This document shows, in pieces, positions 37,551 through 56,089 of a stretch of 64,000 nucleotides of DNA (within the stretch, counting starts at the first letter, position 1; each line of letters starts with the position of its first letter). The DNA is taken from assembly GCF_014219065.1 (NCBI RefSeq), contig NZ_JACLGO010000011.1, positions 1-64,000 on the forward strand, written 5' to 3'. The notes beneath the pieces were generated by a model. It made no database searches. It was given only the letters and a program-made list of their open reading frames with translations, and had not been told where the DNA came from. A program made the position numbers and the translations under genes. Source of the DNA: Halopseudomonas xiamenensis (lineage in GTDB: Bacteria; Pseudomonadota; Gammaproteobacteria; Pseudomonadales; Pseudomonadaceae).

Positions 37551-37623
37551 ACTCCGCTACGTATTCATCAATGCCAATCTCAGCAGTTACCGCCCTGACA
37601 GAGATACCTGCCCTTCCAAGCAT

Positions 37624-38148
37624 CTACGACTCTACTGTTGCCCTCGCTTCCGATGGCGAGCCGCTTTTGTCAACGCCCCAGTGCTTTGCCACCAGACTAG
37701 CCAGAAGCCCCGCCAGGACACCAAGACTCAGCGCAGCCGACAGCTCAATGAACGAAGCGAACTGAGGTGGCAGCGTGGAAGCAAAAAAGCAGACCAACCC
37801 AAGAAAACATGCCAGTAGATTACTAATGGTTGGCAGCAAGCGCATGGATAAAATCACGAAAGTTGCAGCAAGCACAATCAGCGGGAGAGTCAGCTCTCCC
37901 AGATAGGGAGTTACCACACCAGCTACCAGGGCAGCTGCTATGCCAATGGCCAAACCGCTGAGCACACAGGCCAGATTGATCATCCCATCTCGGGGCGTAA
38001 TACCTCGGGTGAAGAAAGCGATCCAACCCAGGAACGTCGCCCATATGGGTACATCAAGTATCAGCAAGCTGATGGTGGCTGCAATACTCGCTACTATTGA
38101 TTCCCCCAAAATAGCTTTGAAGGTGTTTACTCTCAGGGTATTAATCAT
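37624..38148 (-). CDS. DUF1097 family membrane protein
   Basis: 174 aa with five or six hydrophobic helices (SIVASIAATISLLILDVPIW, then LACVLSGLAIGIAAALVAG, LPLIVLAATFVILSMRLLP). Matches the DUF1097 type of small inner-membrane protein, function unknown. It is the last gene of the minus-strand envelope operon of the catabolic island, 33 bp after the RND gene, so it may support that transport system. Confidence 0.8.
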   Translation of the reverse strand: MINTLRVNTFKAILGESIVASIAATISLLILDVPIWATFLGWIAFFTRGITPRDGMINLACVLSGLAIGIAAALVAGVVTPYLGELTLPLIVLAATFVILSMRLLPTISNLLACFLGLVCFFASTLPPQFASFIELSAALSLGVLAGLLASLVAKHWGVDKSGSPSEARATVES

Positions 38149-38181
38149 GATTTTACACCTGGTCTCTGTAGTCAGACAGTC

Positions 38182-40614
38182 TCACACCAGTTGGGCAAAC
38201 CTTGAAACGCCTTGCTCGTCCGATACCCGCTGAGGACTCAGGCTATTTGCCAAACCCAGTAGATTAGCCAGTGCCGGGATGAGGACCAGGGCGCCCAACA
38301 TGTTCCAGATGAACATGAATGCCAGCAGGATGCCCATGTCGGCCTGGAATTTGATCGGTGAGAAAGCCCAGGTCGCCACGGCGATACCCAAGGTGACGCC
38401 GGTCAACACCACAACCTTCCCTGTCGACAGCAAGGCGGTGTAATAGGCATTGGACAAGGTTGCCCCCTGGCGCAGATGAACCAGCGTGATACTCAACACA
38501 TATAGGGCATAGTCCACACCGATTCCTACACCCAAAGCGATCACCGGCAGGGTTGCCACTTTGAGTCCTATACCCAGGAATACCATCAGGGCTTCGCAGA
38601 GAATCGACGTCAGCATCAGCGGCAGAACAGTACATAGCACTGCCCTCCATGACCGGAAGGTGATGAAGCACAGTGCGATGACGGCCGCGTAGACCATGAA
38701 GAGCATTTGCACGTTGGCGCGCTTGACCACGATATTCGTAGCCGCCTCGATACCAGCGTTACCCGCGCCGGACATGAACTGCAGCGTATCGGTGTTGTGC
38801 TCGGCAGCAAACGCCTCGACAGCAGCAACCACCCGGCTAAGGGTTTCTGCCTTGTGATCAGACAGAAAAACGTTGATGGTCATCAGATCGCAGTTCTGGT
38901 TGAAAAGCTCACGTGGTGCCCGAGTAATGATCGCGTTCAGCAGCCCCTGATTGCTGGGAATCCCGTACCAGGCAAGATTGCCTTCGTTCATGCCTGCAGC
39001 AGCAGTCTTGCTGAGCGCCGCGAGTGAACTGCTTGATACCACGCCAGGCAACATCTGCAACTGAGACTCCAGGGCGTCAACCTTGACCAGCGTTTCATAG
39101 TTGGCGCAGTAGTATTGCGGAGCCTTGACCATGACGACATATTTGTCGCTGCTGGCCGCATAGTTGCTTACCATGAAAGCATTGTCCTGGTTGTAACGGG
39201 AATCAGGACGTAACTCAGGCGCACCGGGATCCAGGTCACCGATCTGCAGTTGAAAGCTGGTAACGAAACCGAATACCCCCAGCGCCAAGCCAACCATCAC
39301 AGCTATACGTGCCCATTTACGCTGCGTGAAGTGATCCAGGAATGACCACAGCGGTTGGCGGTTGTGCTCGATATTCTCCAGAGCCCTGGTTTCACGCTCG
39401 GCCTCACGTCGTGATGCAGTTGCACTTACGCCGGTATAGGACAGCAGTATCGGCAGCAAAATCAGGTTGGTGAAGATCAACACCATGACCCCAATGGTGG
39501 CGGCGATCGCCAGCTCCTGGATCACCGGGATATCGATAATCATCAGTACGCCAAAACCGACCGCATCGGCCAACAGCGCCATGAGACCAGTGAGAAACAA
39601 GCGACGGAACGTCAGTCGTGCAGCGATAACCTTGTCGGCGCCACGCCCTATATCCTGCATGATGCCATTCATTTTCTGAGCACCATGGCTCAGACCGATG
39701 GCGAAAATAAGAAAGGGTACCAGGATCGAGTAGGGGTCCAGTTCCAAGCCGAGCAGTGGCAATAGTCCCAGCAGCCAGGCGACGGCAATGCTCGAACATA
39801 GCAGTACCAGCGCGGTGCTGCGCAAACAGCGCGTGTACCAGAAGATAACCAATGCACAGATAACGAAAGTGAATGCAAAGAAGACCTGCATCAGCTTGAG
39901 ACCATCAATCAGATCACCCACTACCTTGGCAAAGCCGGTTATATGGATCTTGATGGTGTCGGTCTCATATCGTTGACGCAGGTCTTCCAACTGGGAAGAT
40001 AGTGCGTGGTAATCGATCGGCGCGGCACCCTTATTGCTCGCGTCCTGCAGAGGCAGCAGGATCACGCTGGAACGCATGTTGGATGCTACCAGATGCCCAA
40101 CTTCTCCCGACCTAGCCACATTCTGGCGCACCTGATCGATACTTTCTGAAGAGCCATCATAATCATCAGGGATAACCGGGCCACCATCAAAACCCTCCTC
40201 CGTGACCCCTATCCAGCGTGTTGCTGGAGTCCACAGGGATTTCATATAAGGGCGATCAATTCCGGGTACCAGAAACAGCTCATCGCTGATATTTTTTACC
40301 GTCTCCAGATATTCGGGGTTGTAGATAGTGCCTTCAGTAGTATGGACGGCAACACGTAATGTGTTGCCTCCCTCGCCGAGCTGATTACGGTATTTGAAAT
40401 AATTCTGGATATAAGGGTGACTAACCGGAATCATCTTTTCGAATGCAGCATTCAGCCGTAGATCACCTGCCTGATATCCGAGAAAAATACTGATGAGCAG
40501 GCAGGCGAGCACCACAATCGCACGATGATTGAATAGAAGACGCTCAACAACACCGCCGGTGCGCTCATCGAACACTGGGTTATCGCTGGCTTGCTTGACT
40601 GAATCACCGTTCAT
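38182..40614 (-). CDS. RND/MMPL family transporter
   Basis: 810 aa in two MMPL-type halves, each with an initial helix, a large periplasmic domain and a block of five helices; RND segments such as FAIGLSHGAQKMNGIMQD and GVGIGVDYALYVLS are evident. Of the HpnN-like two-domain type without a membrane-fusion partner. Members move lipids or hydrophobic molecules between inner and outer membrane. ATG at 40614 (MNGDSVKQ) is chosen; it overlaps the YCF48-like gene by 11 bases, so the two proteins are coupled. Confidence 0.88.
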   Translation of the reverse strand: MNGDSVKQASDNPVFDERTGGVVERLLFNHRAIVVLACLLISIFLGYQAGDLRLNAAFEKMIPVSHPYIQNYFKYRNQLGEGGNTLRVAVHTTEGTIYNPEYLETVKNISDELFLVPGIDRPYMKSLWTPATRWIGVTEEGFDGGPVIPDDYDGSSESIDQVRQNVARSGEVGHLVASNMRSSVILLPLQDASNKGAAPIDYHALSSQLEDLRQRYETDTIKIHITGFAKVVGDLIDGLKLMQVFFAFTFVICALVIFWYTRCLRSTALVLLCSSIAVAWLLGLLPLLGLELDPYSILVPFLIFAIGLSHGAQKMNGIMQDIGRGADKVIAARLTFRRLFLTGLMALLADAVGFGVLMIIDIPVIQELAIAATIGVMVLIFTNLILLPILLSYTGVSATASRREAERETRALENIEHNRQPLWSFLDHFTQRKWARIAVMVGLALGVFGFVTSFQLQIGDLDPGAPELRPDSRYNQDNAFMVSNYAASSDKYVVMVKAPQYYCANYETLVKVDALESQLQMLPGVVSSSSLAALSKTAAAGMNEGNLAWYGIPSNQGLLNAIITRAPRELFNQNCDLMTINVFLSDHKAETLSRVVAAVEAFAAEHNTDTLQFMSGAGNAGIEAATNIVVKRANVQMLFMVYAAVIALCFITFRSWRAVLCTVLPLMLTSILCEALMVFLGIGLKVATLPVIALGVGIGVDYALYVLSITLVHLRQGATLSNAYYTALLSTGKVVVLTGVTLGIAVATWAFSPIKFQADMGILLAFMFIWNMLGALVLIPALANLLGLANSLSPQRVSDEQGVSRFAQLV

Positions 40615-41728
40615 GATTCGGCTCCATTGTATTGTTGGCGCTTGAGGGACGAACCAGACCACGAGTACTGGATAAGACTATCTGGTCATTGGCGAGGGTA
40701 GATATCCCACTGAGATAGATCGGCTGCTCAAGCGTAGTGACCTTGAATGTTTGCCCGCCATCCTGACTGGAGAGAATGCCGCCGGATTCATCTACCAGCA
40801 GGAGCGTCCCATCATTCAGCCTGATTCCCGATGTGAGGTTGGCGGAACGATTGTTAGTCACCGGGCGCCAATGCTGCCCCTTGTCTTCGGAGAGATAGGC
40901 CTTTCCTCTCAGGCCGTAGGCCACGAGATTGCCGGATCCTGCCAACACCCCGAAAAGACTGCCGCTGGCGGGCGATTCGAGAGCGGTAAAATGACCACCC
41001 CGATCAGAGCGCAGCAGAATGCCTTGCTCGCCGGCAATAAACACCGCTCCATTCAGTTCCTCAATGTCATACAAATGAAGTCCCATCGGATTGTCGATCC
41101 GATGCCGGATTGGCCGCCAACTTGCGCCGCCGTCACTGGTGGCAAAAGCCAGGCCGTAGGCACCGACTGCCAGACCTTCGTGCTCATCAAAGAAGTGCAA
41201 GGCGAGAAATGGTTTGTCGGGACCGTCGGCAACCAGGTACTCAGCATCTATCACACGCTGCTCAGTATCTTCGTCAGGGTTGGCTTGATGAGCCTGCTGC
41301 GCCGCCTCAAACTCGATTTTTGCCGCCTGCTCCCCATCCAATTGTTTTTGCCAGGTCAGGCCACCATCTTCTGTATGCAGAATCACTCCCGCGTGACCTA
41401 CTGCCCAGCCTTTGTGCTCATTGGCGAATACCACTCGTGTCAATGTCACACTGACCGGCGTAAGGATCTGCCTCCACGTCTGGCTTTCATCATCGGAGAC
41501 AAGGACGAACCCCCGCTCTCCAACTGCCACCAAGCGTGAGCCAGCACGGGTGATATCCAGCATCAGCGAATGTTGAGCGAGGGGGCTGATCATGGAAGTT
41601 CGCTCGAAGAGCCTGCCCTCATCCGTACCCTTATCTGCATGCGCCGCCATGCTGCAGGCAGTGAGACTGAATGCAAGCAGTGCAGCCAACCTGATGCGAT
41701 ACCGTTGAAGATATATGCTTTTTTTCAT
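40604..41728 (-). CDS. YCF48/BNR-repeat lipoprotein or periplasmic protein
   Basis: 374 aa. A possible lipobox LTAC (Cys25) sits in the N-terminal signal segment. The mature protein is a beta-propeller of YCF48/photosystem-assembly type, with repeated units such as VGERGFVLVSDDESQTW, VGHAGVILHTEDGGLTW and LLVDESGGILSSQDGGQTF. In proteobacteria such proteins are encoded beside RND, DUF1329 and DUF1302 genes; they may scaffold the envelope complex. Overlaps the RND gene start. Confidence 0.85.
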   Translation of the reverse strand: MKKSIYLQRYRIRLAALLAFSLTACSMAAHADKGTDEGRLFERTSMISPLAQHSLMLDITRAGSRLVAVGERGFVLVSDDESQTWRQILTPVSVTLTRVVFANEHKGWAVGHAGVILHTEDGGLTWQKQLDGEQAAKIEFEAAQQAHQANPDEDTEQRVIDAEYLVADGPDKPFLALHFFDEHEGLAVGAYGLAFATSDGGASWRPIRHRIDNPMGLHLYDIEELNGAVFIAGEQGILLRSDRGGHFTALESPASGSLFGVLAGSGNLVAYGLRGKAYLSEDKGQHWRPVTNNRSANLTSGIRLNDGTLLLVDESGGILSSQDGGQTFKVTTLEQPIYLSGISTLANDQIVLSSTRGLVRPSSANNTMEPNHER

Positions 41729-41785
41729 TATTTGACCTTCTGGAAAGTGTGGAAGGCGCGTCGAGCGCACCTTCCACGCCTACCG

Positions 41786-43138
41786 TCAGCGAGCAGAGCC
41801 AGCGGCTACAGCGTTGCCGGTAAAGAAGTTTTCCGATTTGCGAGAGACAACCCTGTAGTTTTCACCATTGAGCCCCTGCACCATGCTGTAGGTATTGGCC
41901 TGCAGGTTATAAATGACCACCGGCTTGACAACGACGGCAGGAATTGCCGGCACTGCGAACGGTAGAGCCTGGCTCACACGCCATAACTTGTCTTCAGCGT
42001 CATAGCCATCAGTGAGCGCAATAGTCCAGCTATCCTCGTCTATGAAAAAGCGACGTTTGGGCACCGCATGCCGTTTGCCCGATGCCAATGTCGCTTCCAC
42101 TTCCCAGACCCGGTGCAGCTCCCAGCGCATTGCCTCAGAGTTCAGCACTCCCTCGGTATAAACCGCTTCCCGTGGCTGTGCATGGAAGCTGTTGAGGTTA
42201 TAGGGAATGTACATTTCCTTTTTTCCGACAAGCTTCCAGTCATAGCGATCTGGATGACCAATAAAGCCATGCACTTCATCAAAGTAGTTGGCGCCTGATG
42301 CAACAAAGTCAGGTGTGTCATAGCCCACCGTTGGAGCTCTGCGCACACGGCGTTGACCCACCAGATACTGCCAGGCGTCTCGCGGCGATGCGGCATTGAT
42401 ACTGTCATGCGTTACCAGCGCTTCGCCGGCCTTGAATGGAGGCTCATTGGTCAGGAAGCGCAGCAGAACATATTTGCCGTGCCAGTCTGCAGCGTTACCG
42501 TCCTGGTAATAGTAGGGGTACTGCCAGTTTTCTACCCCACGACTGGCCAGAGTGCGAGATCCATCCGAGTTGCCAATGATATTCAGATAGCCATGCTCGA
42601 TTGATTCAGCCTCCACTCTCAGCAGGAAGTTCCACAGTACCTCGCTGCCGTTCTGCGGTATCGGGAAAGGGATACCACCGTAACAACCTTCTACTGACAA
42701 CCCCTCATGGGTCAGCTTGCATTGCGTAGCGTTGGTGAAGGTATTGTCATAGACCCATTGCGGCGCCGCAGCCGTTCGATGGCTGGGGTACACCTTCAGA
42801 TAAAAACTATCCGGAAATTGCTGAAGCAGCGCCCTGGTCCCCTCATTCAACTTATCGGCATGCTGATCTGCATTCTCCGCCGTAATGGTGAAAAGTGGTT
42901 CCTCACCGGGGAACAGATTCGCTGGTACATCACCGAACTTGTCGCCCGGAACATCGGCGGTCAAACCGCCAGTCCACTCGGGGATACTGCCATCACTGTT
43001 ACCTGCTCGCTCCGCACCCAGCGGAGTGAGAGTGGATTTGAGCGCATTGGCTTGTTCATCAGAAACACTGGCATGGGCATAATTGATAGCCAAGCTGAGT
43101 GCCAGAAAAGCATGAAGTACAAACTCAGGTTTTTTCAT
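41786..43138 (-). CDS. DUF1329 family outer-membrane-associated protein
   Basis: 450 aa with a signal peptide (INYAHA near 23). Mature start VSDEQANALKSTLTPLGAERAGNSDG and IPEWTGGL are hallmark DUF1329 segments; the fold is related to LolA/LolB lipid carriers. Likely a periplasmic carrier of a hydrophobic molecule. Same operon as the DUF1302 protein (22 bp gap) and the RND transporter. Confidence 0.88.
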   Translation of the reverse strand: MKKPEFVLHAFLALSLAINYAHASVSDEQANALKSTLTPLGAERAGNSDGSIPEWTGGLTADVPGDKFGDVPANLFPGEEPLFTITAENADQHADKLNEGTRALLQQFPDSFYLKVYPSHRTAAAPQWVYDNTFTNATQCKLTHEGLSVEGCYGGIPFPIPQNGSEVLWNFLLRVEAESIEHGYLNIIGNSDGSRTLASRGVENWQYPYYYQDGNAADWHGKYVLLRFLTNEPPFKAGEALVTHDSINAASPRDAWQYLVGQRRVRRAPTVGYDTPDFVASGANYFDEVHGFIGHPDRYDWKLVGKKEMYIPYNLNSFHAQPREAVYTEGVLNSEAMRWELHRVWEVEATLASGKRHAVPKRRFFIDEDSWTIALTDGYDAEDKLWRVSQALPFAVPAIPAVVVKPVVIYNLQANTYSMVQGLNGENYRVVSRKSENFFTGNAVAAGSAR

Positions 43139-43160
43139 CTTGTTCTCCAGAGAGTTTGGG

Positions 43161-44804
43161 TCAGAAGGTGCGCTGAATCGAGAAAGCGATGAAATCCCGA
43201 TCCTTCAACGTCTGCTTGTAGGTATATTCATTTGTCTCATCAATGATTGGCGCACCAGCACCGAAGAAGTTGGTATAACTGAGTGAGGCATACCAGAGCT
43301 TCTGGTAATCAGCCTTGAGTCCGATAGTGACGTCACCACCACGCTCCGGACTGAAGGCAAGCGGTGTCACCGAAGAACGACCGTAGGGTGTATAGCCGAC
43401 AGTAATCGGAACCTGCACGTCTACCTGGGGGAAGACCTGGAAGTACTGAGGCTCGAAGGTAAAACGCATGCTGTATGCATCACGGGTGGCGTTGGGGTCG
43501 ATCTGTTCCTTGTTTTCCTTCACCCGCAGCCGGCGGTTGAAAGCCAGTTCGCCGACAAATGACGCCGCATCCCAGTAGTTATTGCCACTGAACAGATTGA
43601 TCATCGATACCTGGGCATGCAGCGAATCACCAATCGGGTAGGCTGGGTTGGAGTTGTTGTCAGCCCCCATACCGGCGATAACCACGCCTCCCGTCGCCGT
43701 CAGCGGAGTATCCACCCGCATGGACAATTCACCAGCAACGTTGGCCTCCCCGATCAGCGTACTGAAACTGGCTCCGTAGACCTTCACCTCCTCAGCGTAA
43801 ACGTTTACATAACTGTCATCGTTCCCCGGAATCAACGCGGCAGGGCGGAAATAGAAAATGGGGGATTTATCATGAAATCTGGCGGCATACAGCCCGAGCT
43901 CCCAATCCTGCAGGTTGAACTTGATCTGCGCACCAAACTGGCCTGAGTCACGTGCATCGATATCCTTGCCGCGCATCAGACGACCGGTAGGAAAATAAAC
44001 GCTCTCGGCGCCCTCACCGACAAAGTCACCTACGTTGAAGTAGCTGCCCGAACCGGGAAGCCGGTTCTCATTCCATTCAAATTGATAGTAGGCTCCTACC
44101 ATCACATTATTGCCGAGCTGCCAGTTGAACGAGACCTGCTCGGTCGGCATGAGGATCTCCTTGAACTGCGAGCCGGGCACAGATTGAAGCTTGATCAGGT
44201 CGACAGTCGATTGAGCGCCGGCAATCCCGTTGGCTCCGAAGAACAGGCTTTCACCATATATTTCGGTGAACTGGCCCAGGCGGCCAAACAGTCGACTTGA
44301 GCCGATATCAACACCTCCGTAAACGAAGAAGTCCAGAAGCTCCCCCTTACGCCCATGCAGTTTCTCGGTGTCCTTGGTGAACCTGTTATGACGCACACTG
44401 ACCTGGTTGGCAGTGATCGGCGAATCATGGTCTGTTGACTCGTTGTAGACGGTGTCATACCAGGCAGCACCGCTGACACGCGCGCCGACGTCCCCATATC
44501 GGATATCCAGCTCAGTCATCAAGTCCAGTCGATTGGAGATCAGGCCTGAGCTGAAGTTACGGTCACCATCGTCAAGGTTGAAGTTCGGGTTCGAGGTACC
44601 CGGCCCGACGACGATATTGTCGTCGTACCCCTTTACCCGGAACGCATTACTGTACTTCACGGTGGTGTCCAGCCTGGTCGTCAGGCCTTCGACTCCCGTA
44701 TCAAACTGAAATGCCTGGGCATTGAGCGACGCGGATAGAGCAAGTGCGGCGCCGATGGCACTGAGCGTAAAGGGCGGCAGATTTCGCCTGTGATTTTGCT
44801 GCAT
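43161..44804 (-). CDS. DUF1302 family outer-membrane beta-barrel protein
   Basis: 547 aa with a long signal peptide (cleavage near ALNAQA/F, residues 30-32). The mature chain begins FQFDTGVEGLTTRLDTTVKYSNAFRV and ends with an aromatic C-terminal residue (SIQRTF), as expected for BamA-inserted barrels; repeated beta-strand patterns fill the rest. DUF1302 proteins accompany DUF1329 and RND genes and are candidate outer-membrane channels for hydrophobic substrates. ATG at 44804 is chosen; the upstream in-frame extension to 44861 adds polar residues. Confidence 0.88.
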   Translation of the reverse strand: MQQNHRRNLPPFTLSAIGAALALSASLNAQAFQFDTGVEGLTTRLDTTVKYSNAFRVKGYDDNIVVGPGTSNPNFNLDDGDRNFSSGLISNRLDLMTELDIRYGDVGARVSGAAWYDTVYNESTDHDSPITANQVSVRHNRFTKDTEKLHGRKGELLDFFVYGGVDIGSSRLFGRLGQFTEIYGESLFFGANGIAGAQSTVDLIKLQSVPGSQFKEILMPTEQVSFNWQLGNNVMVGAYYQFEWNENRLPGSGSYFNVGDFVGEGAESVYFPTGRLMRGKDIDARDSGQFGAQIKFNLQDWELGLYAARFHDKSPIFYFRPAALIPGNDDSYVNVYAEEVKVYGASFSTLIGEANVAGELSMRVDTPLTATGGVVIAGMGADNNSNPAYPIGDSLHAQVSMINLFSGNNYWDAASFVGELAFNRRLRVKENKEQIDPNATRDAYSMRFTFEPQYFQVFPQVDVQVPITVGYTPYGRSSVTPLAFSPERGGDVTIGLKADYQKLWYASLSYTNFFGAGAPIIDETNEYTYKQTLKDRDFIAFSIQRTF

Positions 44805-44903
44805 GGTAGTGGTCTCTCTGTTTTTATATTTATTCAAAGTGGTTCTCATCGAACCCGGCACATCAGCGGCGCTGATGTGCCATCCTGCTTCTGGGCATCA
44901 GCG

Positions 44904-45317
44904 TCATCCACTGGCCTCTGTTAACGCATCCAGGCCGGCTTGAGCGATCTGGGCATCGAAGGCTGACTTGACCCCGCTCACCGCAATCCCCCCAACGACA
45001 TCACCCTGGTAGATGATCGGCAGACCGCCGGTCATGGGAACGACGTTCGCAAGAGAACTGGTGCCAGCGATTCCACTCGACAACATGTCTTCAAAAAAAC
45101 TGGTAGGCCGACGAAACAACGCGGAACAACGCGCCTTGTCGATGGCAATCTGAACCGAAGATCGGGAAGCATCGGGCAGACGACGAAAGGCAATCAGGAA
45201 GCCGCCCTGGTCGACAACAGCAATGGAAACGGACCAGCCATTACTCCTCGCCTCCAGCGCAGCTCTATCAAGCATTTCCTCTGCATCACTCAAGTCGAGT
45301 TCGGGCTTCATACGCAT
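44904..45317 (-). CDS. GlcG/HbpS family protein
   Basis: 137 aa single-domain protein of the GlcG/HbpS (DUF336) family: RSNGWSVSIAVVDQGGFLIAFRR at the N-terminal half and PMTGGLPIIYQGDVVGGIAVSG near the end. HbpS binds haem in Streptomyces; in degradation clusters the role is unclear. ATG at 45317 is preceded by GAGGAG seven bases upstream. First gene of the minus operon that leads to DUF1302-DUF1329-YCF48-RND-DUF1097. Confidence 0.9.
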   Translation of the reverse strand: MRMKPELDLSDAEEMLDRAALEARSNGWSVSIAVVDQGGFLIAFRRLPDASRSSVQIAIDKARCSALFRRPTSFFEDMLSSGIAGTSSLANVVPMTGGLPIIYQGDVVGGIAVSGVKSAFDAQIAQAGLDALTEASG

Positions 45318-45662
45318 GATCGATCTCCTCACTGCGGGATGCACACCCGCTACGCATCAATTCAATTTATTGCATATTTATCAAATTTGTGCACAAACGG
45401 TACTCAGCCTTTGAAGCCAAGTCAAGCACCAAAATTCTTCGTAATCGTCATTCATTCTGGACTACTGATAACTTGGCGAGGGCTAGCGCTCTGTATCACT
45501 TTCGGAGTACGCATATTGCACAAGAACATGCACAATTTGATCTTGTCGAGTTATCCAGATTGGCATAGGCTGACCTCCAGCATCACCATCGCTTGGGTGA
45601 ATCTGTGCAAGCTGGCGTTCCAGCTATTGCATTGCGATGTGGTTAAAAAAGGAGAGTCTGCT
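45318..45662. other. Divergent control region of the first catabolic operon pair
   Basis: 345 bp between the GlcG-like gene (minus) and the CoA-transferase gene (plus). It holds the palindrome at 45386-45397 and further GCACAA half-site-like stretches around 45516-45535. The coding frame of the CoA-transferase stays open through it but the sequence has no relation to the family. Confidence 0.6.
45386..45397. promoter_or_regulatory. Candidate FadR-type operator 1
   Basis: Perfect palindrome TTTGTGCACAAA, 69 bp upstream of the GlcG-like start. The core TTGT..ACAA fits the TNGT...ACNA pattern of FadR/FCD GntR regulators, and an identical 12-mer lies in the other divergent promoter at 50690. Confidence 0.65.
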
Positions 45663-46886: not shown

Positions 46887-46993
46887 AAAGCCTCACTTGC
46901 CTTGGCAAAATCGCGGGCTGCCCATACAGCACCCGAGGTAGCCTCCATACCAACTGCAGATGATCAAGAAAATAATAACAGGAGTGACATACC

Positions 46994-47527: not shown

Positions 47528-47551
47528 AGCATGTGTAAAGGCTATGAAAGT

Positions 47552-48226: not shown

Positions 48227-48752
48227 CAATGCCTGCGGCCAGAAACTGGCGAGCAGGCTCATCAATCAGTCGGCCATCCTTTATCTTTCCGGCCACGGCA
48301 CCAACGACAATCTGCGGGTATCTGACCAGCTTCGCCTGAACGGCCCAGAGCGTTTCATTCAGTTGCTGCTGCGCTCGGACACCACCGGTAAAGGCAGGCG
48401 ACGCAGTCATGACCAGCACAGGCTTATTCTTGAGAACAGAGTTTCCATGGGGGCGTGACAGCCAGTCCAGGGTATTCTTGATCACCCCTGACATACCGTG
48501 ATTGTACTCAGGCGACGCAATCAACACGCCATCGGCGTTTGCCACCATTTGCCTCAACAGAGAAACGGAAACCGGAGTGGAACTTTCCGTCAGATCAAGG
48601 TCTTCGTTATATAGCGGGATATCATGCAGCGATGGAATTTCCATCACTGCGTGGGCGGGCAACAGCTCTTCAGCCACAGTGCGCAGAACGACATCGTTGC
48701 TCGATGCTTTACGCAGGCTGCCACACAAACCCAGCAAGTGGACGGTTTGCAT
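48198..48752 (-). CDS. NADPH-dependent FMN reductase
   Basis: 184 aa flavodoxin-fold reductase. Phosphate-binding loop GLCGSLRKASSNDVVLR and the signature SPEYNHGMSGVIKNTLDWLSRP are fully conserved. Possible source of reduced flavin or a quinone reductase for the ring-hydroxylating steps; the flavin monooxygenase in the cluster is of the single-component NAD(P)H type and should not need it. Last gene of the DUF1185-dehydrogenase minus operon. Confidence 0.92.
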   Translation of the reverse strand: MQTVHLLGLCGSLRKASSNDVVLRTVAEELLPAHAVMEIPSLHDIPLYNEDLDLTESSTPVSVSLLRQMVANADGVLIASPEYNHGMSGVIKNTLDWLSRPHGNSVLKNKPVLVMTASPAFTGGVRAQQQLNETLWAVQAKLVRYPQIVVGAVAGKIKDGRLIDEPARQFLAAGIVSLCDTVRG

Positions 48753-48822
48753 TCCCCTCTCCTCATGCAGAAAAACATCACAATACTGAGCAAGGCAGGT
48801 GCCTCGCTCAGTTCAGTTCAGT

Positions 48823-49938
48823 TCAAGGACGTATGACGTAGTTGCTGAACCCACCACTGCGGTTCTCGATCCCGCTGATTGCTTCGTTTATCTGATCGAG
48901 TGGGAAAACCTGGTGCTCAAAGAACGAAATATCCAGCACACCGGATTCGACCATATCTGCCATCGCCTGACCCTGGCCACTGGTGAACCAGGCCGAGCCG
49001 CTGATATGCAGATCATTATCCATGATCCAGTGCAGATCCAACGGCACATCACCAGCAATGGCACCAATGTTCACCAAATGCCCGCTCCGATGCAGCGCAC
49101 GCACGGAGTCGACAAGGTTATCCGCTGGTGCACCAGGCCCCATGCAGTCAATTACCGCATCCACGCCCTCACCTGCGGTGATTTGCTCAACCCACTCCGA
49201 GGTCAAGCCGTCATCGAGGGAGTGGATTTCAATGCGGCCTGGCGCCGCCAGATCCTTCACTCGCTGGAAGAGCGTTTGGTTGCGCGCAGTCCCCAGTATC
49301 TTACGCGCGCCCATGGCCAAGGCCAGCGCCACCGCGCCCAGACCCAGGGTGCCACTGATACCGTTGATCAGCACGGTGCTGGTCGGACCAACATTGGCTT
49401 TGAGCAGCGCTCGATAAGCGGTCCCCAGGTAACCCAGGCGTGCAGCGGTTTCGAAACTCATGCTGTCCGGAATCTTCACCAGGCTGTATTGCGGCGCTGG
49501 CATGTATTCACACAGGCCGCCGTACGGGTAATCTTCGAACATACGCGGGCTGCGAGGCGTAAAACCGAAATAGCCATTGAAGGTATAGGCCGAACAGCCC
49601 GTGGTGTTGCCTGACCGGCAGGAACGGCAGGAACCGCAGTAACGCGCCGGATTGACATATACCCGATCACCGGGCTTGAAGTCATAGACCTGGTCACCAA
49701 CCTGCTCGACAACACCGGCAGGATCCAGACCAAATATCGCTGGCAGCTTTGGCAATGGCAGATGGGGAAACCAGGTTGTCCAATTAGTCAGAATATTGTG
49801 CAGGTTCGGGACGATACCACAGGCCTCAACCTTGACCAGAACCTCGGTAGGCCGAATGGCTGGTACGGGTATCTGTTCAAGCTCCATCGGTTGTCCGCAC
49901 TCATGCATTCTGGCGGCGCGCATCATTTTTTTTGTCAT
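48823..49938 (-). CDS. MDR-superfamily alcohol dehydrogenase-like protein
   Basis: 371 aa. GroES-like domain with structural-zinc Cys quartet in CGSCRSCRSGNTTGC, Rossmann domain with GISGTLGLGAVALALAMGA. The first catalytic Cys is kept (VEACGIV), but where zinc dehydrogenases have GHExxG this protein has GLDPAG, so the catalytic zinc site looks altered. Probably an NAD(P)H-dependent oxidoreductase of the pathway. ATG at 49938 has AGAAAGGAAAG upstream; the longer frame to 50136 overlaps the neighbouring gene. Operon with DUF1185 and the FMN reductase. Confidence 0.87.
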   Translation of the reverse strand: MTKKMMRAARMHECGQPMELEQIPVPAIRPTEVLVKVEACGIVPNLHNILTNWTTWFPHLPLPKLPAIFGLDPAGVVEQVGDQVYDFKPGDRVYVNPARYCGSCRSCRSGNTTGCSAYTFNGYFGFTPRSPRMFEDYPYGGLCEYMPAPQYSLVKIPDSMSFETAARLGYLGTAYRALLKANVGPTSTVLINGISGTLGLGAVALALAMGARKILGTARNQTLFQRVKDLAAPGRIEIHSLDDGLTSEWVEQITAGEGVDAVIDCMGPGAPADNLVDSVRALHRSGHLVNIGAIAGDVPLDLHWIMDNDLHISGSAWFTSGQGQAMADMVESGVLDISFFEHQVFPLDQINEAISGIENRSGGFSNYVIRP

Positions 49939-50017
49939 GGGTTTCTTTCCTTTCTTATTGTCAGATTTTTCATCTAGCGGGCCAGCCGGCCCACCGTCTC
50001 TGCAACTGTTCGCTTCG

Positions 50018-50599
50018 TTACCGCAACCCGTCGTCACCCTTAACGTCGGCAGCAGCCAGACCACCAAGGCGAGCGTGAATGCGACCACCCGTAGCCATAG
50101 CCAGACCGAAGGCGATCTCATCACGGCGCGGACCATCCCATAGCGTCATTTCCGCCACGCCGAAATGGCTGCGAACGTAAGCCGCATGAATATGCCCCAG
50201 CGGAACCATTATCCGTGTACCAGGACCACCTATGCCCTTAGCGGAAGGAACAATAGCCTTTGGCTCGCCGAGCGCTTCGCGCATGGCCCAGCCCCCGGCC
50301 TCATGCCAAACGGCGCCATGCTCAAGCTCGCCATCCTCACCCACGATGGCGGCCTTGCCATAGGCCTCAATCTTGTCCAGACCACCCAACGCCTTGATCA
50401 ACCTGCCAGCAAGATCAGCGCCCAGCCCACGTAGTTCCTGCATGAAGGCATTCAGATCTTCTACGTAGCGCCCCGCATAAGGGTTTTCCACAATGGCCAT
50501 CGCAACCGCAACCCTCAACGGCTCGGCAGCCACCGGGCCACGCTCATGGAGGATATCTTCAACATCCAGCTTAAATTTACGAACCTTAACCAGTGACAT
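50018..50599 (-). CDS. DUF1185 (amino acid synthesis family) protein
   Basis: 193 aa, Pfam AA_synth/DUF1185 type: KFKLDVEDILHERGP at the start, VAMAIVENPYAGRYVEDL, GELEHGAVWHEAGGWAMREALG and IMVPLGHIHAAYVRSHF. Despite the family name no reaction is established; members sit in catabolic clusters. Good ribosome site (GGAGAAGC). Divergent from the FAH gene with the operator in between; leads the minus operon. Confidence 0.9.
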   Translation of the reverse strand: MSLVKVRKFKLDVEDILHERGPVAAEPLRVAVAMAIVENPYAGRYVEDLNAFMQELRGLGADLAGRLIKALGGLDKIEAYGKAAIVGEDGELEHGAVWHEAGGWAMREALGEPKAIVPSAKGIGGPGTRIMVPLGHIHAAYVRSHFGVAEMTLWDGPRRDEIAFGLAMATGGRIHARLGGLAAADVKGDDGLR

Positions 50600-50688
50600 G
50601 TTTATGCTTCTCCAGGCTTCTTCGCGAGATATTAGTTCATAGGGCTTCCCTAGTATGCATTTTATGAGTTATGGTGCAAGAACATTAT

Positions 50689-50702
50689 TTTTGTGCACAA
50701 AA
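50689..50702. promoter_or_regulatory. Candidate FadR-type operator 2
   Basis: Perfect palindrome TTTTGTGCACAAAA, ending 12 bp before the FAH-family start and just ahead of its ribosome site, where a bound repressor would block transcription. Its 12-bp core is identical to operator 1 at 45386, 5.3 kb away. Confidence 0.7.
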
Positions 50703-50714
50703 TGGAGAACAAGA

Positions 50715-51566
50715 ATGAAGCTCGTATCTTATCAATATCGTGGTCAAGCCAGTTACGGGGCCGTTGCAGGTGATCGGATTATCGATCTGGCTCAACGATT
50801 CCCTACTGCTCCCGATCTGAAAACGCTGCTGGCTGACGACAGCCTCTTGGCTCAAGCCCACGACTGCGTTCTGGATGCCAGCGGCGATATTGCTTTGTCT
50901 GAGGTGCAGCTTGAACCGGTCATCCCGGCACCAGGCAAAATCATCTGCGTCGGAATCAACTATGTCGCTCACGCCGAGGAAGCCGGGCGCAAGGTGGGAA
51001 AATATCCGGTCATATTCCAGCGTTTCGCTGAAACACTGTTGGCAGCAGGCGCGCCCCTTGCACGTCCCAAAGTGTCTTCCGAATTCGACTTCGAGGCCGA
51101 GCTCGCCGTAGTGATCGGCAAAGGCGGTTCACATATTGCCCCAGAAGATGCCATGTCCCATGTGGCTGGCTACACCTGCTTCAATGATGCCAGCGTACGG
51201 GACTGGCAGTTCCACACCCACCAGTACGGCATGGGCAAGACTTTCCGTGGCACAGGTTCGCTCGGCCCTTGGCTGGTCACTGCCGATGAGATTGCCGACT
51301 ATAGAGAGCTGGAAATTCGGGGCTTGCTCAATGGTGAGCAAATGCAGCATGGCCGCCTTTCCGAGCTGGCCTTCGATATTCCCCACCTCATCTCCTACGT
51401 TTCCCAGGCGCTCGACTGGAACCCAGGTGACATTCTCGCCACAGGAACACCCAGCGGCATTGGCTTCAAGCGCAACCCACCGATCTTTCTCAAACCAGGT
51501 GACGTTTTCGAAGTAGTCATCTCGCAGATTGGCACCCTGGCCAACCCTGTGGTTGACGAAGCCTGA
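50715..51566 (+). CDS. Fumarylacetoacetate hydrolase family protein
   Basis: 283 aa FAH-fold enzyme. IICVGINYVAHAEEAG starts the domain; metal ligands are recognised in SSEFDFEAELAVVIG (Glu, Glu) and CFNDASVRDWQ (Asp); IISYV and ILATGTPSGIGF close it. Such enzymes hydrolyse, decarboxylate or hydrate acylpyruvates and 2-hydroxydienoates at the end of ring-cleavage pathways. ATG at 50715 follows GGAGAACAAG. First of four plus-strand genes ending with the monooxygenase. Confidence 0.94.
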   Translation: MKLVSYQYRGQASYGAVAGDRIIDLAQRFPTAPDLKTLLADDSLLAQAHDCVLDASGDIALSEVQLEPVIPAPGKIICVGINYVAHAEEAGRKVGKYPVIFQRFAETLLAAGAPLARPKVSSEFDFEAELAVVIGKGGSHIAPEDAMSHVAGYTCFNDASVRDWQFHTHQYGMGKTFRGTGSLGPWLVTADEIADYRELEIRGLLNGEQMQHGRLSELAFDIPHLISYVSQALDWNPGDILATGTPSGIGFKRNPPIFLKPGDVFEVVISQIGTLANPVVDEA

Positions 51567-51602
51567 ACCGATAATCGACCTTCAAACAAGAGATACATAG
51601 AC

Positions 51603-52160
51603 ATGGCTACATTGCCCAGAATCAACTTTACCCACACAGGCACCTTCTGCTCCGACCTGGACAATATGGTCGAGTTCTATTGCCAGAAGCTCGGCTTCGT
51701 GGTCAGCGACAAAGGGGTCGCATCAACCGGCCACCGCCTGTTTTTCCTGACCCAGAATCCGGAAGTTCATCACCAGCTGGTGCTGTTCGATGGCAAACCA
51801 GACGATCTGGCATTCAACCCGATCAACCAGCTTTCCTTCCTGCTTGACTCGCTGGAAGACCTGAAAAGCTATTACGCCTTTGCCAAAGCCAACGGCATTG
51901 AAGGTATCGATCAGGTTGATCACGGTAATGCTTGGTCCATGTATTTCAAGGACCCGGAAGGCAACCCTATCGAGATGTACGTAGACGCCCCGTTTTATAC
52001 CAACCAGCCCTGTCGTGAGCCGTTGGATCTGAATCAGAGCGCCGAAGAGATACTGAGCCGTACCGAGGCTATATGCCGGCGCCGACCCGGGTTTCAGACT
52101 CGCGATGAGTGGATACAGGCAACCCGTGAGCGCATCGCCGAGCAACGCGTCTCCTGGTAA
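51603..52160 (+). CDS. VOC family protein, possible single-domain extradiol dioxygenase
   Basis: 185 aa glyoxalase/bleomycin-resistance/dioxygenase fold. Candidate metal ligands are His11 (NFTHTGTF), His57 (VHHQLVLF) and Glu124 (PIEMYV), the spacing of type I extradiol dioxygenases, with the C-terminal DPEGNPIEMYVDAPFY. A C-terminal helical tail follows. In this operon, between an FAH-type hydrolase and an MhpA-like hydroxylase, ring cleavage of a catechol is the natural guess; isomerase or lyase activity is also possible in the superfamily. Confidence 0.88.
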   Translation: MATLPRINFTHTGTFCSDLDNMVEFYCQKLGFVVSDKGVASTGHRLFFLTQNPEVHHQLVLFDGKPDDLAFNPINQLSFLLDSLEDLKSYYAFAKANGIEGIDQVDHGNAWSMYFKDPEGNPIEMYVDAPFYTNQPCREPLDLNQSAEEILSRTEAICRRRPGFQTRDEWIQATRERIAEQRVSW

Positions 52161-52210
52161 TCTCCATCCGTGCGGCTCGCAAGGGCCGCACTCCAGCTCG
52201 GAAATGAGCC

Positions 52211-53641
52211 ATGAACAAGAATCTCATTGCAGGAAACTGGTGCGAGGGGCGTAGCGTTCGGGAGAATATCAACCCCTCCGACCTGTCCGATATCGTCGGA
52301 ATCTATGCCCAGGCCGATGCTGAGGATACACAGCGCGCCATTGAGGCAGCCACCCGGGCCCAGCCGATATGGGCCGCGTACAGCAGCCAACAACGCGCTG
52401 ACGCACTCGACCGGATCGGTACGGAAATACTCCAGCGCCAGACGGAACTCGGCGAGTTGCTGGCACGTGAAGAAGGCAAGGTCCTGCCCGAAGCGATAGC
52501 AGAGGTAAGCCGCGCCGGGCATATTTTCAAATTCTTCGCTGGCGAGGCCATGAGGGTTACCGGAGAGCACTTGGATTCTGTTCGCTCCGGGATCGAAGTT
52601 GACATTCTGCGCCAACCCGTTGGCGTCGTCGGCATCATTACGCCGTGGAATTTCCCGATTGCCATACCCGCCTGGAAAATTGCTCCAGCCCTGGCCTATG
52701 GCAATAGTGTGGTGTTCAAGCCAGCAGATCTGGTACCCGGCTCAGCCTGGGCGCTGGCTGATATCATTCATCGCAGCAGCTTGCCCGACGGCACCTTTAA
52801 CCTGTTGATGGGTAGAGGAAGCGTAGTTGGCCAGACAATGCTGGAATCGCCCAAGGTTCGGGCAATCAGCTTCACAGGCTCAGCGGATACCGGCCAGCGC
52901 ATCATGCAGTCTGCCGGTACGCGGATGGCTAAGTTGCAGATGGAAATGGGTGGCAAGAATCCGCTGGTAGTGCTGAATGATGCCGAGCTGGATCGAGCCG
53001 TGGAGTGTGCCGTACACGGTGCTTTTTTCTCCACTGGCCAGCGTTGTACCGCATCATCACGCTTCATAGTGGAAAAAGGCATTTATCCTCACTTTGTGCA
53101 AGCCGTAGTCACGCGCCTCGAACAGCTGCGGGTAGGCCATGCGCTGGAGGCCGGTATTGATATCGGGCCAGTTGCCGACGCATCGCAGTATGAGCAGGAT
53201 CTCAACTATGTAGACATAGGCAAGGCCGAAGGCGCATTTCTTGCCTCGGGTGGCGTCCCATTGAAACGGGAGACAGAGGGCTTTTATATGAGCCCGGCGC
53301 TCTTTACTGACTGCGACCCGCACATGCGGATCGCCCAGGAAGAAATTTTCGGTCCCGTAGCCTGCGTCATCCCGGCCGACAATTATGAGCAAGCCCTGGA
53401 GTTCGCCAATGCCACGCCCTTCGGTCTGTCTGCAGGCATCTGCACCACATCTCTGAAACATGCCACTCATTATAAGCGGCACGTGCAAAGCGGCATGGTC
53501 ATGGTGAACACCCCCACCGCCGGCGTGGATTATCACGTGCCATTCGGCGGTACCAAAGCATCAAGCTTTGGACCGAGGGAACAGGGCCATCACGCCATCG
53601 AGTTTTTCACCACAACGAAAACCGCCTACACACAAGCGTAA
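52211..53641 (+). CDS. NAD(P)-dependent aldehyde dehydrogenase
   Basis: 476 aa. All core motifs are present: TPWNFPIAIPAWKIAP (with the catalytic Asn), FTGSADTGQRI cofactor loop, MEMGGKNP (general base Glu), GQRCTASSR (catalytic Cys) and EEIFGPVACV. Closest in look to semialdehyde dehydrogenases (alpha-ketoglutarate semialdehyde, vanillin or benzaldehyde type). Would oxidise an aldehyde or a ring-cleavage semialdehyde of the pathway. Confidence 0.94.
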   Translation: MNKNLIAGNWCEGRSVRENINPSDLSDIVGIYAQADAEDTQRAIEAATRAQPIWAAYSSQQRADALDRIGTEILQRQTELGELLAREEGKVLPEAIAEVSRAGHIFKFFAGEAMRVTGEHLDSVRSGIEVDILRQPVGVVGIITPWNFPIAIPAWKIAPALAYGNSVVFKPADLVPGSAWALADIIHRSSLPDGTFNLLMGRGSVVGQTMLESPKVRAISFTGSADTGQRIMQSAGTRMAKLQMEMGGKNPLVVLNDAELDRAVECAVHGAFFSTGQRCTASSRFIVEKGIYPHFVQAVVTRLEQLRVGHALEAGIDIGPVADASQYEQDLNYVDIGKAEGAFLASGGVPLKRETEGFYMSPALFTDCDPHMRIAQEEIFGPVACVIPADNYEQALEFANATPFGLSAGICTTSLKHATHYKRHVQSGMVMVNTPTAGVDYHVPFGGTKASSFGPREQGHHAIEFFTTTKTAYTQA

Positions 53642-53680
53642 GTATTGACGCAACCAAGAACAAGAAGACTGGAGACAAAT

Positions 53681-55243
53681 ATGGATTACGACCTGATCAT
53701 TGTCGGCATGGGCCCCGTAGGTGCCACAGCCGCCAACCTCGCCGGTCAATGGGGCCTGAAAACGTTGGCGCTCGATAAGAGCGATGTGGTCTTTGAAAAC
53801 CCCAGAGCAATGGGGTTCGATCAGGAAGTCATGCGCACGTTCGATAATATCGGCATCGCAGATACTATCGCTTCCCATGTCATGCCTTACCGCGCGTCCC
53901 ATTATCTGAACGCACAGGCTCGGCTGATCCGTCATATCGATGCAGCCAAGCCGCCCCACCTGCTGGGCTGGGCGCCCAATTATGTATTCACTCAACCGCC
54001 AGTGGAAAAGGCCATTCGCGCCAATCTCGGCCAGTTCCCCCACGTAGATGTTCTGCTCGGCACCGAGGTGATTGATGTACAGCAACAGGGGGCTGCAGTA
54101 TCAGTGCAGATACGCAGCAAGGACGGTGAAACCCGCGACCTGAGCTGTGCCTATGTTCTGGCCTGTGATGGCGGAACCAGCCCGATTCGGACCCAACTGG
54201 GACTGCAGATGGAGGACCTCGCGTTTGACGAGCCCTGGCTGGTAGTCGATGTCCTGCTCAAGGAGGGTGCCGGTGAATCACTTCCGACCACCAACGTGCA
54301 GTACTGCGAAACCGCACGACCTTCCACTTTTGTCATCGGGCCCGGCCGTCATCGACGCTGGGAGTTCATGATAAACCCCGGTGAGACCCCAACAGACATC
54401 TCCCGCCCAGAGGCTATTCAACACTTGATCTCCCGTTGGCTGCCAGCGGCGGACTATGACATCTGGCGCGCCTCAACTTACCGTTTCCACGCCCTGGTAC
54501 TGCAGCAATGGCAACGGGGTCGGGTGTTCTTCCTGGGCGACGCAGCGCATATGACTCCGCCCTTTCTCGCCCAGGGCATGTGTCAGGGCATCCGTGACGC
54601 GGTCAATCTGCTCTGGAAAATCGCCATGGTTCATCGCGGTAATGCGGCATCCACCCTTCTCGATAGCTACCAGAAGGAGCGAGCACCCCATGTGCGGCGT
54701 ACTACTGAGGTCGCTAAGGAGCTGGGACAGATCATTTGCGAAAGAGACCCGACAAGCGCCGCAGAACGTGATCACCGATTGCTGCAGGGGATGAATACAG
54801 CGCGGAGCTATACCGTACGCCAAGCCCTTATTCCGGGACTGCAGGATGGCCTTATTGCAGACAGCGGACCAGCCGGAGAATTGTTCCCCCAGCCGCAGGT
54901 AACCAACAGCGATGGGAAGGTGGATCTGCTTGACCGTTTCACTGGCCAAACCTTCCGTCTGGTGATTGCCAGTGCCTTCCCCGATAGTCGAGAGCTGTTG
55001 CACAACCTTCAGCACAATCTGAATGGCCATGACCTGCCGATCACCGTTGTGCAACTGACAGATTCCACACCCCTGGCACCGGAGCAGTTTCGGGAACATC
55101 ATGGACTGCTGAAGCAATGGATGACGGAAAGGGGCTGTCAGGTATTACTGGTGCGGCCGGATCACTACCTGTACGGCGGCGCCGAATCGCTGCAAGATGC
55201 CATTTTGCTGCTTGAGCGCCTTCTCGGAGATCTGCACAACTGA
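53681..55243 (+). CDS. FAD-dependent aromatic monooxygenase, MhpA-like
   Basis: 520 aa. FAD-binding GxGxxG at VGMGPVGATAANLAG (9-14), the DG motif LACDGGTSPIR (Asp163) and the GD motif FFLGDAAHMTPPFLAQGMCQ (Asp287) define a group A flavoprotein hydroxylase; whole-length resemblance is to 3-(3-hydroxyphenyl)propionate hydroxylase, including a C-terminal thioredoxin-like domain. Adds a hydroxyl to a phenolic ring using NAD(P)H and O2. ATG at 53681 with GGAGACAAAT upstream. Last gene of the plus operon. Confidence 0.93.
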   Translation: MDYDLIIVGMGPVGATAANLAGQWGLKTLALDKSDVVFENPRAMGFDQEVMRTFDNIGIADTIASHVMPYRASHYLNAQARLIRHIDAAKPPHLLGWAPNYVFTQPPVEKAIRANLGQFPHVDVLLGTEVIDVQQQGAAVSVQIRSKDGETRDLSCAYVLACDGGTSPIRTQLGLQMEDLAFDEPWLVVDVLLKEGAGESLPTTNVQYCETARPSTFVIGPGRHRRWEFMINPGETPTDISRPEAIQHLISRWLPAADYDIWRASTYRFHALVLQQWQRGRVFFLGDAAHMTPPFLAQGMCQGIRDAVNLLWKIAMVHRGNAASTLLDSYQKERAPHVRRTTEVAKELGQIICERDPTSAAERDHRLLQGMNTARSYTVRQALIPGLQDGLIADSGPAGELFPQPQVTNSDGKVDLLDRFTGQTFRLVIASAFPDSRELLHNLQHNLNGHDLPITVVQLTDSTPLAPEQFREHHGLLKQWMTERGCQVLLVRPDHYLYGGAESLQDAILLLERLLGDLHN

Positions 55244-55257
55244 CGTGAGAACAGAGT

Positions 55258-55285
55258 CCGACGATGCTCTTGCGGGCATCGTCGG
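55258..55285. terminator. Hairpin between convergent monooxygenase and GntR genes
   Basis: CCGACGATGC and GCATCGTCGG form a perfect 10-bp stem with an 8-nt loop. Located 15 bp past the monooxygenase stop and 6 bp before the GntR stop. No long U-tract. Confidence 0.65.
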
Positions 55286-55290
55286 CTCAG

Positions 55291-55977
55291 TCATTGCAGA
55301 GTGGTATTGTGCTGACGAAGTACCGCGGCCACATTGGTCAGTGTTTTACCGATATGCATCCTCAATAACCCGACAGCTTTGTCAATGTCACGTGAGAAAG
55401 CGATATCCATCAACTGCTTGTGCTCGTCACCCTTGTGACGTGCAACAGTGCGATGCAGCGCAGAAAAGCGGCGATAGCGTTCTGCCTGATTGAACAGTGA
55501 ATCAACCATGCGCAGCAGTTGAGGAGAGGGACACGCAGAAAACAAGGCGAAGTGGAACGCCTTGTGTCTAGCCGACCATTCATCATCCAGCGCTACAAAG
55601 GCACCTTCAAGCTTCTTTTCAACCAGCCCCAGACGATGGTACGCGCCAAGAACCTCAGCCTCCCAGGCATCGTCACCATAGCGAATAGCGTCGGCCAGCG
55701 CTTCGCCCTCCAGCAACTGGCGCAAGCGGGTAATCTCCTGAAAGTTCTCCAGCGAAAGCCCGGCAACTCGAAAGCCCTTGTTCTCGCTTGATTCAACTAT
55801 GCCTTCCTGCGTCAATCTGTTCAGCGCTTCACGAATAGGCGAACTGCTCAGACCATAGCGTTGCGACAACTCCGCAACCTTCAATTTTTCACCGGGAGGC
55901 AACTCGCAACAGATGATCGCCTGCTTCATTTGCTGCAGGGCGACTTCGATCAATGAGCGGCTAGCTACGTTTGACAT
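55291..55977 (-). CDS. GntR family regulator with FCD domain (FadR subfamily)
   Basis: 228 aa. N-terminal winged helix (LPPGEKLKVAELSQRYGLSSSPIREALNRL read in parts, residues 25-55) followed by an all-helical FCD domain with metal/ligand His positions (RHKAFHFALFSAC, then HKQLMDIAF, RMHIGKTL). Members repress catabolic operons and release DNA on binding an acid intermediate. Encoded beside the island, so it is the natural regulator for the TTTGTGCACAAA sites; a related site lies 35 bp upstream of its own start. Confidence 0.92.
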   Translation of the reverse strand: MSNVASRSLIEVALQQMKQAIICCELPPGEKLKVAELSQRYGLSSSPIREALNRLTQEGIVESSENKGFRVAGLSLENFQEITRLRQLLEGEALADAIRYGDDAWEAEVLGAYHRLGLVEKKLEGAFVALDDEWSARHKAFHFALFSACPSPQLLRMVDSLFNQAERYRRFSALHRTVARHKGDEHKQLMDIAFSRDIDKAVGLLRMHIGKTLTNVAAVLRQHNTTLQ

Positions 55978-56011
55978 TCAGGTATGCCTAATTTAATTGC
56001 AATGAATGAAA

Positions 56012-56026
56012 TTTTATGCGCAAAAA
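56012..56026. promoter_or_regulatory. Candidate operator 3, upstream of the FadR-type gene
   Basis: TTTTATGCGCAAAA matches operator 2 at 12 of 14 positions and is an imperfect palindrome. Its place 35 bp before the GntR start suggests autoregulation. A further TTTATGCAATTT stretch follows at about 56031. Confidence 0.5.
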
Positions 56027-56089
56027 TTATTTTATGCAATTTCATTCTACCCTCAGGCATGAAATCACCTTGTTGTTTACAATACATAT

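Follow-up and report, generated by a model that had tools for sequence, protein, structure and literature searches.

A horizontally acquired island of Halopseudomonas xiamenensis with an hcd-type gene set, probably for 7-hydroxycoumarin or a close relative, and an Ame-type transporter in a shared putative regulon

Which compound is degraded by the gene cluster at positions 37624-55977 of a 64-kb stretch of Halopseudomonas xiamenensis DNA (contig NZ_JACLGO010000011.1; the whole 64,000-nucleotide stretch is called the window below, and all coordinates are positions in it), and do the transporter genes beside its ring-cleavage genes belong to the same system? Gene families were assigned by Pfam and NCBIfam scans of the 17 island proteins, whose start positions were later corrected, and operon structure was deduced from strand and spacing alone. 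A first-pass annotation, made from the sequence only, had described an uncharacterised island for the import, hydroxylation, ring cleavage and oxidation of a hydrophobic phenolic or terpenoid-like compound; the scans recovered all 17 genes that it had named, in the order and on the strands given there. We consider it probable, from sequence comparison, that this is a horizontally acquired hcd-type island through which 7-hydroxycoumarin or a closely related compound is degraded, and that its Ame-type transporter belongs to a shared putative regulon. Plants use hydroxycoumarins for defence and for gathering iron. The catabolic gene set itself is already known from the hcd genes of Pseudomonas mandelii 7HK4; the points new here are a putative operator shared by transporter and pathway, an MDR protein without catalytic-zinc ligands, a VOC protein with glutamine at the expected position of an iron-ligand histidine, and a possible end of the pathway in pyruvate and 3-oxoadipate.

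The available parts of the two hcd papers assign the hcd genes of P. mandelii to 7-hydroxycoumarin degradation and describe HcdA as a class A FAD ipso-hydroxylase, HcdB as a type I extradiol dioxygenase, HcdC as a 31.2-kDa FAH protein, HcdD as a member of the former DUF1185, HcdE as an MDR protein (alcohol-dehydrogenase-type, ~40 kDa) by which the double bond of coumarin is reduced, HcdF as a cupin and HcdG as an FMN reductase (PMC6222606, PMC7913881). 7-Hydroxycoumarin induces hcdABC, hcdR, hp4, hcdD and hcdE ~1000-fold, as measured by RT-qPCR; the reactions of HcdE, HcdA and HcdB were shown, and the cleavage product was consumed with HcdC present (same sources). The catabolic half of the island closely resembles this set in family, size and clustering, and the label 'uncharacterised' does not hold for it. 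All seven families are present: an MhpA-like FAD hydroxylase (HcdA-like; 53681-55243, plus strand), a single-domain VOC protein, probably an extradiol dioxygenase (HcdB-like; 51603-52160, plus), a FAH-family hydrolase (HcdC-like; 50715-51566, plus), a DUF1185 (PF06684) protein (HcdD-like; 50018-50599, minus), an MDR reductase of 371 residues with replaced catalytic-zinc ligands (HcdE-like; 48823-49938, minus), a cupin (HcdF-like; 46994-47527, plus) and an FMN reductase (HcdG-like; 48198-48752, minus). The assignments come from family scans (Pfam for the cupin and FMN reductase) together with the relatives described below or, for the MDR and VOC proteins, with alignment and, for the latter, a structure model. 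The sizes agree, with 30.5 kDa for the FAH protein and 40.2 kDa for the MDR protein. The genes fall into a minus-strand operon (48198-50599: FMN reductase, MDR, DUF1185) facing a plus-strand operon (50715-55243: FAH, VOC, aldehyde dehydrogenase, hydroxylase), while the cupin sits in the neighbouring plus-strand operon (45663-48226) between a class III CoA-transferase and a 226-residue M15-like protein. Compared with the published set, the island adds these last two genes, the transporter and the aldehyde dehydrogenase (52211-53641, plus; family scan and relatives), which lies outside hcdA-G.

In order to find relatives, six short peptide patterns taken from the hydroxylase were run against a collection of 84,980 genomes, an approach that reaches close relatives only; of the 12 loci obtained, nine match at 53% or more. 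They include Pseudomonas benzenivorans (L011), P. sp. JM0905a (L012), P. reidholzensis (L013) and four Burkholderiales loci (L014-L017); a genome of the same family as the source (G183) was added from a sample of the order. The homologues of hcdDEFG in L013 and G183 lie together in ~3 kb, as in the published cluster (~3 kb), and are divergent from FAH-VOC-hydroxylase, and in L011 and L012 the same region contains an extra thiolase and aldehyde dehydrogenase. The catabolic genes of L011-L013 match those of the island at 60-89% (L013 being without the aldehyde dehydrogenase) and their DUF1302, DUF1329, YCF48 and RND genes at 55-83%; for G183 the corresponding ranges are 51-80% and 48-76%. The transporter set is found in all five Pseudomonas-type clusters, the window included. 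An MCP-type chemotaxis receptor adjoins the FCD regulator gene in L011 (L011:12655-14580), L012 (L012:12489-14405) and L013 (L013:11619-13202), and none was found in the island of the window. The Burkholderiales loci have homologues of the cupin, MDR, DUF1185, FAH, VOC, hydroxylase and FCD genes, the FAH protein of L015 and the VOC proteins of L015 and L017 being only 39-44% alike, and the aldehyde dehydrogenase is present in two of the four; homologues of the FMN reductase and of the transporter were not found in their flanks. On a plasmid of Rhodococcus opacus, genes for MDR, cupin, FCD, FAH, DUF1185, VOC and aldehyde dehydrogenase proteins stand together, and two Streptomyces loci (L018 and L019) hold little of the cluster. 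Co-conservation, on which the first-pass annotation had made its reading depend, is borne out: the gene set recurs in other genera and the palindrome described next is shared, which argues for an association beyond chance.

The palindrome TTTGTGCACAAA stands exactly twice in the window, at 45386-45397 between the transporter and CoA-transferase operons and at 50690-50701 in the divergent catabolic promoter gap, and so occupies both divergent gaps; it did not occur in 100 shuffles. A variant, TTTATGCGCAAA, was found by pattern search at 56013-56024, upstream of the gene for a GntR/FCD regulator (55291-55977, minus; family scan). Across the genome, the pattern TTTRTGCRYAAA gave six strand matches at four places, three of them in the island, and the reversed control pattern gave two matches. 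When up to two mismatches were allowed, 12 loci from ten genomes or records contained 30 sites, 26 of which lie within 400 bases upstream of a homologue of an island gene and outside these genes; this count leaves out L067 (which overlaps L012), L061 (from genome G367, one site), L019 and L025-L028. Ten sets, without the extension locus L065, held 28 sites against a summed shuffle average of 5.3. The spacing is nearly constant in the four Pseudomonas-type relatives, at 27-33 bases before FAH and 36-39 before FCD. Because the relatives carry the palindrome at like places, the transporter and catabolic halves look like one regulon with a shared putative operator. From the placement of the sites in the relatives, we predict that the FCD protein binds the palindrome and controls all of the genes, probably as a repressor. 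No site was found in L019, L025, L026, L027 or L028; the presence of an FCD gene in L027 means that the palindrome is not universal. L025, L026 and L028, with hydroxylase, FAH and VOC genes, are looser cousins that have IclR regulators and are without the palindrome. As a means of searching, the palindrome offers a handle for finding hcd-type sets.

The island seems to be horizontally acquired; together with arsenic genes it forms an insertion of ~20.7 kb relative to a congener. Comparison with congeners delimits a block at 37469-58159 (G + C content 0.549) that contains the catabolic island and arsenic genes. In congener G006, the matches to window positions 36915-37468 and 58160-58475 stand 11 bp apart, and the outer matches (33127-36784, 59308-61492 and 61615-63998) are collinear with some length differences between them. 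Congener G003 is also without the block, its matches to 32907-36750 and 58154-59119 lying ~0.67 kb apart with other sequence between. The two comparisons together indicate an insertion of ~20.7 kb here; a loss in both congeners would be the less simple account. The G + C content is 0.549 both in 37469-55977 and in 55978-58153, whereas the flanks have 0.623 (left) and 0.621 (right); it is already down to 0.596 and 0.580 within 28-36 kb, so that the left border cannot be set by composition alone. The stretches compared at the two ends of the insert share no exact direct repeat of at least nine bases. A hydroxylase match at an E-value of 1e-60 or better was found in one of 36 congeners (G032, 35% identity), and at 1e-100 in three of 390 genomes of the order sample, namely the source itself, G183 (63%) and G367 (43%). 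Beyond the island, the block holds an ArsR-like open reading frame (named by eye), an LMWPc-type gene and ACR3; these arsenic genes, at 56138-58039, share the inserted block with the catabolic island, and congener G002 has a similar arsenic set in a different context.

The transporter operon (37624-45317, minus strand throughout) consists, in order of transcription, of genes for an HbpS/GlcG-like protein (PF03928; 44904-45317), a DUF1302 protein (AmeA-like; 43161-44804), a DUF1329 protein (AmeB-like; 41786-43138; Pfam; 76-81% in four relatives), a YCF48-like protein (AmeC-like; 40604-41728; Pfam; 48-56% in four relatives), an MMPL/HAE3-like RND transporter (AmeD-like; 38182-40614; family scan; 76-80% in four relatives) and a DUF1097 membrane protein (37624-38148; Pfam). 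The order DUF1302-DUF1329-YCF48-RND is that of AmeABCD in Castellaniella defragrans, where the genes encode DUF1302, DUF1329, COG4447/YCF48 and HAE3-type RND proteins; that system is linked to monoterpenes, whereas here the genes have aromatic genes as neighbours and are joined by an HbpS-like and a DUF1097 gene (PMC6394551). According to the accessible part of that report, deletion of AmeABCD lowered monoterpene tolerance and the system, the closest studied transporter, behaves as an efflux system (PMC6394551); the import proposed by the first-pass annotation is not supported. The RND protein scored 149.5 bits with the HAE3 model TIGR00921, below its cut-off of 351.9. In the stretches examined, an HbpS-like gene precedes DUF1302 in two of the four Pseudomonas-type relatives (64% in P. 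benzenivorans, 59% in P. sp. JM0905a), and DUF1097 follows in one of the four (60%, P. benzenivorans). The name 'GlcG-like' had been used for the first gene, which is present as described but is better named after PF03928 (HbpS-like). A literature search of partial coverage found no paper that joins hcd-type genes with an Ame-type transporter. Placing a DUF1302/DUF1329/RND transporter in one putative regulon with a likely compound class makes the role of these common, poorly understood cassettes testable. The 13 DUF1302 matches in this one 4.3-Mb genome may point to many hydrophobic-compound cassettes.

Several observations weigh against an hcd-type island with a jointly regulated transporter. 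The placement of the cupin, aldehyde dehydrogenase and CoA-transferase genes is unlike that of the published hcd set, and the likeness to the Hcd proteins (MW310253, MH346032-34) is one of family, size and clustering. The island hydroxylase falls, over cut-off, in the 3-(3-hydroxyphenyl)propionate hydroxylase subfamily (NCBIfam NF004829), and the available text of the hcd papers likens HcdA to UbiH-type hydroxylases and describes Hcd proteins as without substantial homology to Mhp enzymes (PMC6222606, PMC7913881). The 2018 hcd paper, as far as available, once lists HcdA, HcdB and HcdC as 62, 31 and 20 kDa, at odds with its own 31.2 kDa for HcdC. The fetched flanks of L014-L017 are without the transporter, so the pathway can evidently do without it. 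Within the island by itself, the three sites found with up to two mismatches do not exceed shuffles (mean 1.1, largest 3), and with up to three mismatches there is no excess in the window (12 compared with 17.8 expected); the case for the palindrome thus rests on the exact sites and the relatives.

Among other explanations, an ifc/fde-like pathway for a different resorcinol-type plant compound, such as an isoflavone, flavonoid or chromone, seems to us unlikely. The ifc cluster of Variovorax V35 has the same three kinds of enzyme – FAD hydroxylase, VOC ring-cleavage dioxygenase and cupins – yet the accessible text names no DUF1185, MDR reductase or FAH hydrolase for ifc (PMC11069340), and all three are described for hcd. 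A Variovorax plasmid from a legume root (L023) is a looser cousin with all seven catabolic types and an FCD gene, and a second such plasmid also gave matches, which lends this explanation some weight. We regard it as very unlikely that the island is merely two unrelated neighbours, a pump of Ame type for monoterpenes or hydrocarbons next to an independent pathway for a phenol: DUF1302 genes are indeed common in the genome (the 13 matches above), but palindromes precede both halves, and the island DUF1302 protein shares 68-83% identity with the copies linked to hcd genes and 44% with its best own paralogue among seven of 12. No monoterpene enzyme family was recognised among the 17 proteins, and we rejected a terpenoid substrate.

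The chance that the island encodes a coumarin route of the xenA/mhp type appears slight in the extreme, because the 17 proteins include no member of the old yellow enzyme (OYE)/XenA, MhpB, MhpC, MhpE or MhpF families (the search was confined to these island proteins); the FAH protein presumably shares a superfamily with MhpD. Such a route would account for the MhpA-type hydroxylase, which the mhp pathway has in common with the island, and for coumarin chemistry, both treated in the available part of a 2026 survey of coumarin degraders that counted the xenA/mhp route (PMC13181038). The loci described here indicate that Pseudomonas and Burkholderiales have a second gene set, of the hcd type, to which the Rhodococcus cluster is a cousin.

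If the island is of the hcd type, we infer by analogy that its proteins act as those of P. mandelii. The MDR protein would reduce the lactone C=C bond with NADPH, and the dihydrocoumarin would open to 3-(2,4-dihydroxyphenyl)propionate, which the MhpA-like flavoenzyme would hydroxylate; the VOC enzyme would then cleave the ring and the FAH protein, likely the hydrolase of the pathway, would hydrolyse the cleavage product. The Ame-type DUF1302/DUF1329/YCF48/RND set may move the hydrophobic substrate or toxic intermediates across the envelope, and the FCD protein would control all of these genes through TTTRTGCRYAAA sites. A route that hydroxylates a hydrophobic phenolic, opens its ring by extradiol cleavage and hydrolyses the product is supported, in keeping with the first-pass annotation. 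The accompanying remark that MhpC-type hydrolase, aldolase and acylating acetaldehyde dehydrogenase are lacking also stands, none having been matched among the 17 proteins, and with these Mhp lower-pathway families absent from the island its lower pathway is not that of Mhp. FAH-family acylpyruvases cut next to a 2-oxo group, and such a cut would convert a 2,4,6-trioxo acid into pyruvate and 3-oxoadipate. The pathway may therefore end in these two compounds, a suggestion that we hold to be less likely than the iron-site reading given below; if true, it offers a specific alternative to the final step of the pathway as published, which is hypothetical (PMC6222606).

3-Oxoadipate as a product would provide a use for the island CoA-transferase (dicarboxylate-type; 45663-46886, plus; GcdG-like by family scans and homologue comparison) and for the thiolase of L011 and L012. 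We rejected this thiolase as a 3-oxoadipyl-CoA thiolase, since its best model is acetyl-CoA acetyltransferase NF004206 (709 bits for L011, over cut-off; 658 for L012, under); the pcaF model gave 401 and 398 compared with a cut-off of 597, which argues against a dedicated 3-oxoadipate role, and the genome has its own pcaF elsewhere. Also against this use, the closest counterpart of the CoA-transferase is the gcdG that stands next to gcdH in all seven fetched congener loci (13 of 18 congeners searched had matches) and in three of three Pseudomonas genomes. In this genome gcdH (G000:C39:6804-7967) has no gcdG neighbour, the gcdG-like copy is in the island, and similarity drops to 54% and 41% for the next copies. 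Glutarate was considered as a product on account of the GcdG-like enzyme, and it is favoured by Trinickia (L014) and Paraburkholderia (L016), where a gcdH-CoA-transferase pair and the FCD gene are 2-3 kb apart; the idea was rejected, as the gene usually stands beside gcdH and the island copy may merely be carried along. In two congeners the gene for the gcdG-like CoA-transferase (G018:C15:242120-243298 and G010:C6:42488-43663) has one in-frame stop each.

Two of the enzymes appear from alignment to have unusual metal sites. Val43, Leu71, Asp72 and Tyr170 stand in every one of the 12 MDR proteins aligned at the places where Cys, His, Glu and Cys would bind the catalytic zinc, and the structural-zinc residues Cys101, Cys104, Cys107 and Cys115 are kept, the roles of these ligands being taken to be as in the Sulfolobus alcohol dehydrogenase. 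As judged from the alignment, this loss is easier to reconcile with a C=C reductase than with an alcohol dehydrogenase. A profile of eight VOC members, aligned distantly with XylE (1mpy; E-value 1.2e-5), places His11, His56/57, His107, Tyr114 and Glu124 at XylE His153, His199, His246, Tyr255 and Glu265, and Gln76, invariant in 15 of 15 homologues, at His214, which we take to be an iron ligand, assuming the roles of the other XylE residues likewise. The alignment tentatively suggests that the hcd-type VOC enzyme is an extradiol dioxygenase that holds iron by His-Gln-Glu and not by two His and one Glu, although we think this somewhat doubtful. A literature search for VOC dioxygenases that use a glutamine ligand brought up a single paper, on a toxoflavin-degrading enzyme. 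The model of the protein (mean pLDDT 87.7) has a VOC fold, with 9u42 as best structural match (Z 12.7, root-mean-square deviation 4.2 over 144 residues), and many VOC proteins that are not dioxygenases match it nearly as well.

The remaining gene, for the M15-like protein (47546-48226, plus), is present as first annotated, and the family call is weak: the sole evidence for M15 is a PF08291 signal with an E-value of 0.028, short of the cut-off, and the predicted structure is poor (mean pLDDT 36.8). Among the relatives' clusters, a homologue (77-78%) was found only in that of P. sp. JM0905a. Further homologues occur on unrelated plasmids of Pseudomonas, Nostoc, Sinorhizobium, Rhizobium, Aeromonas, Acinetobacter and Shinella.

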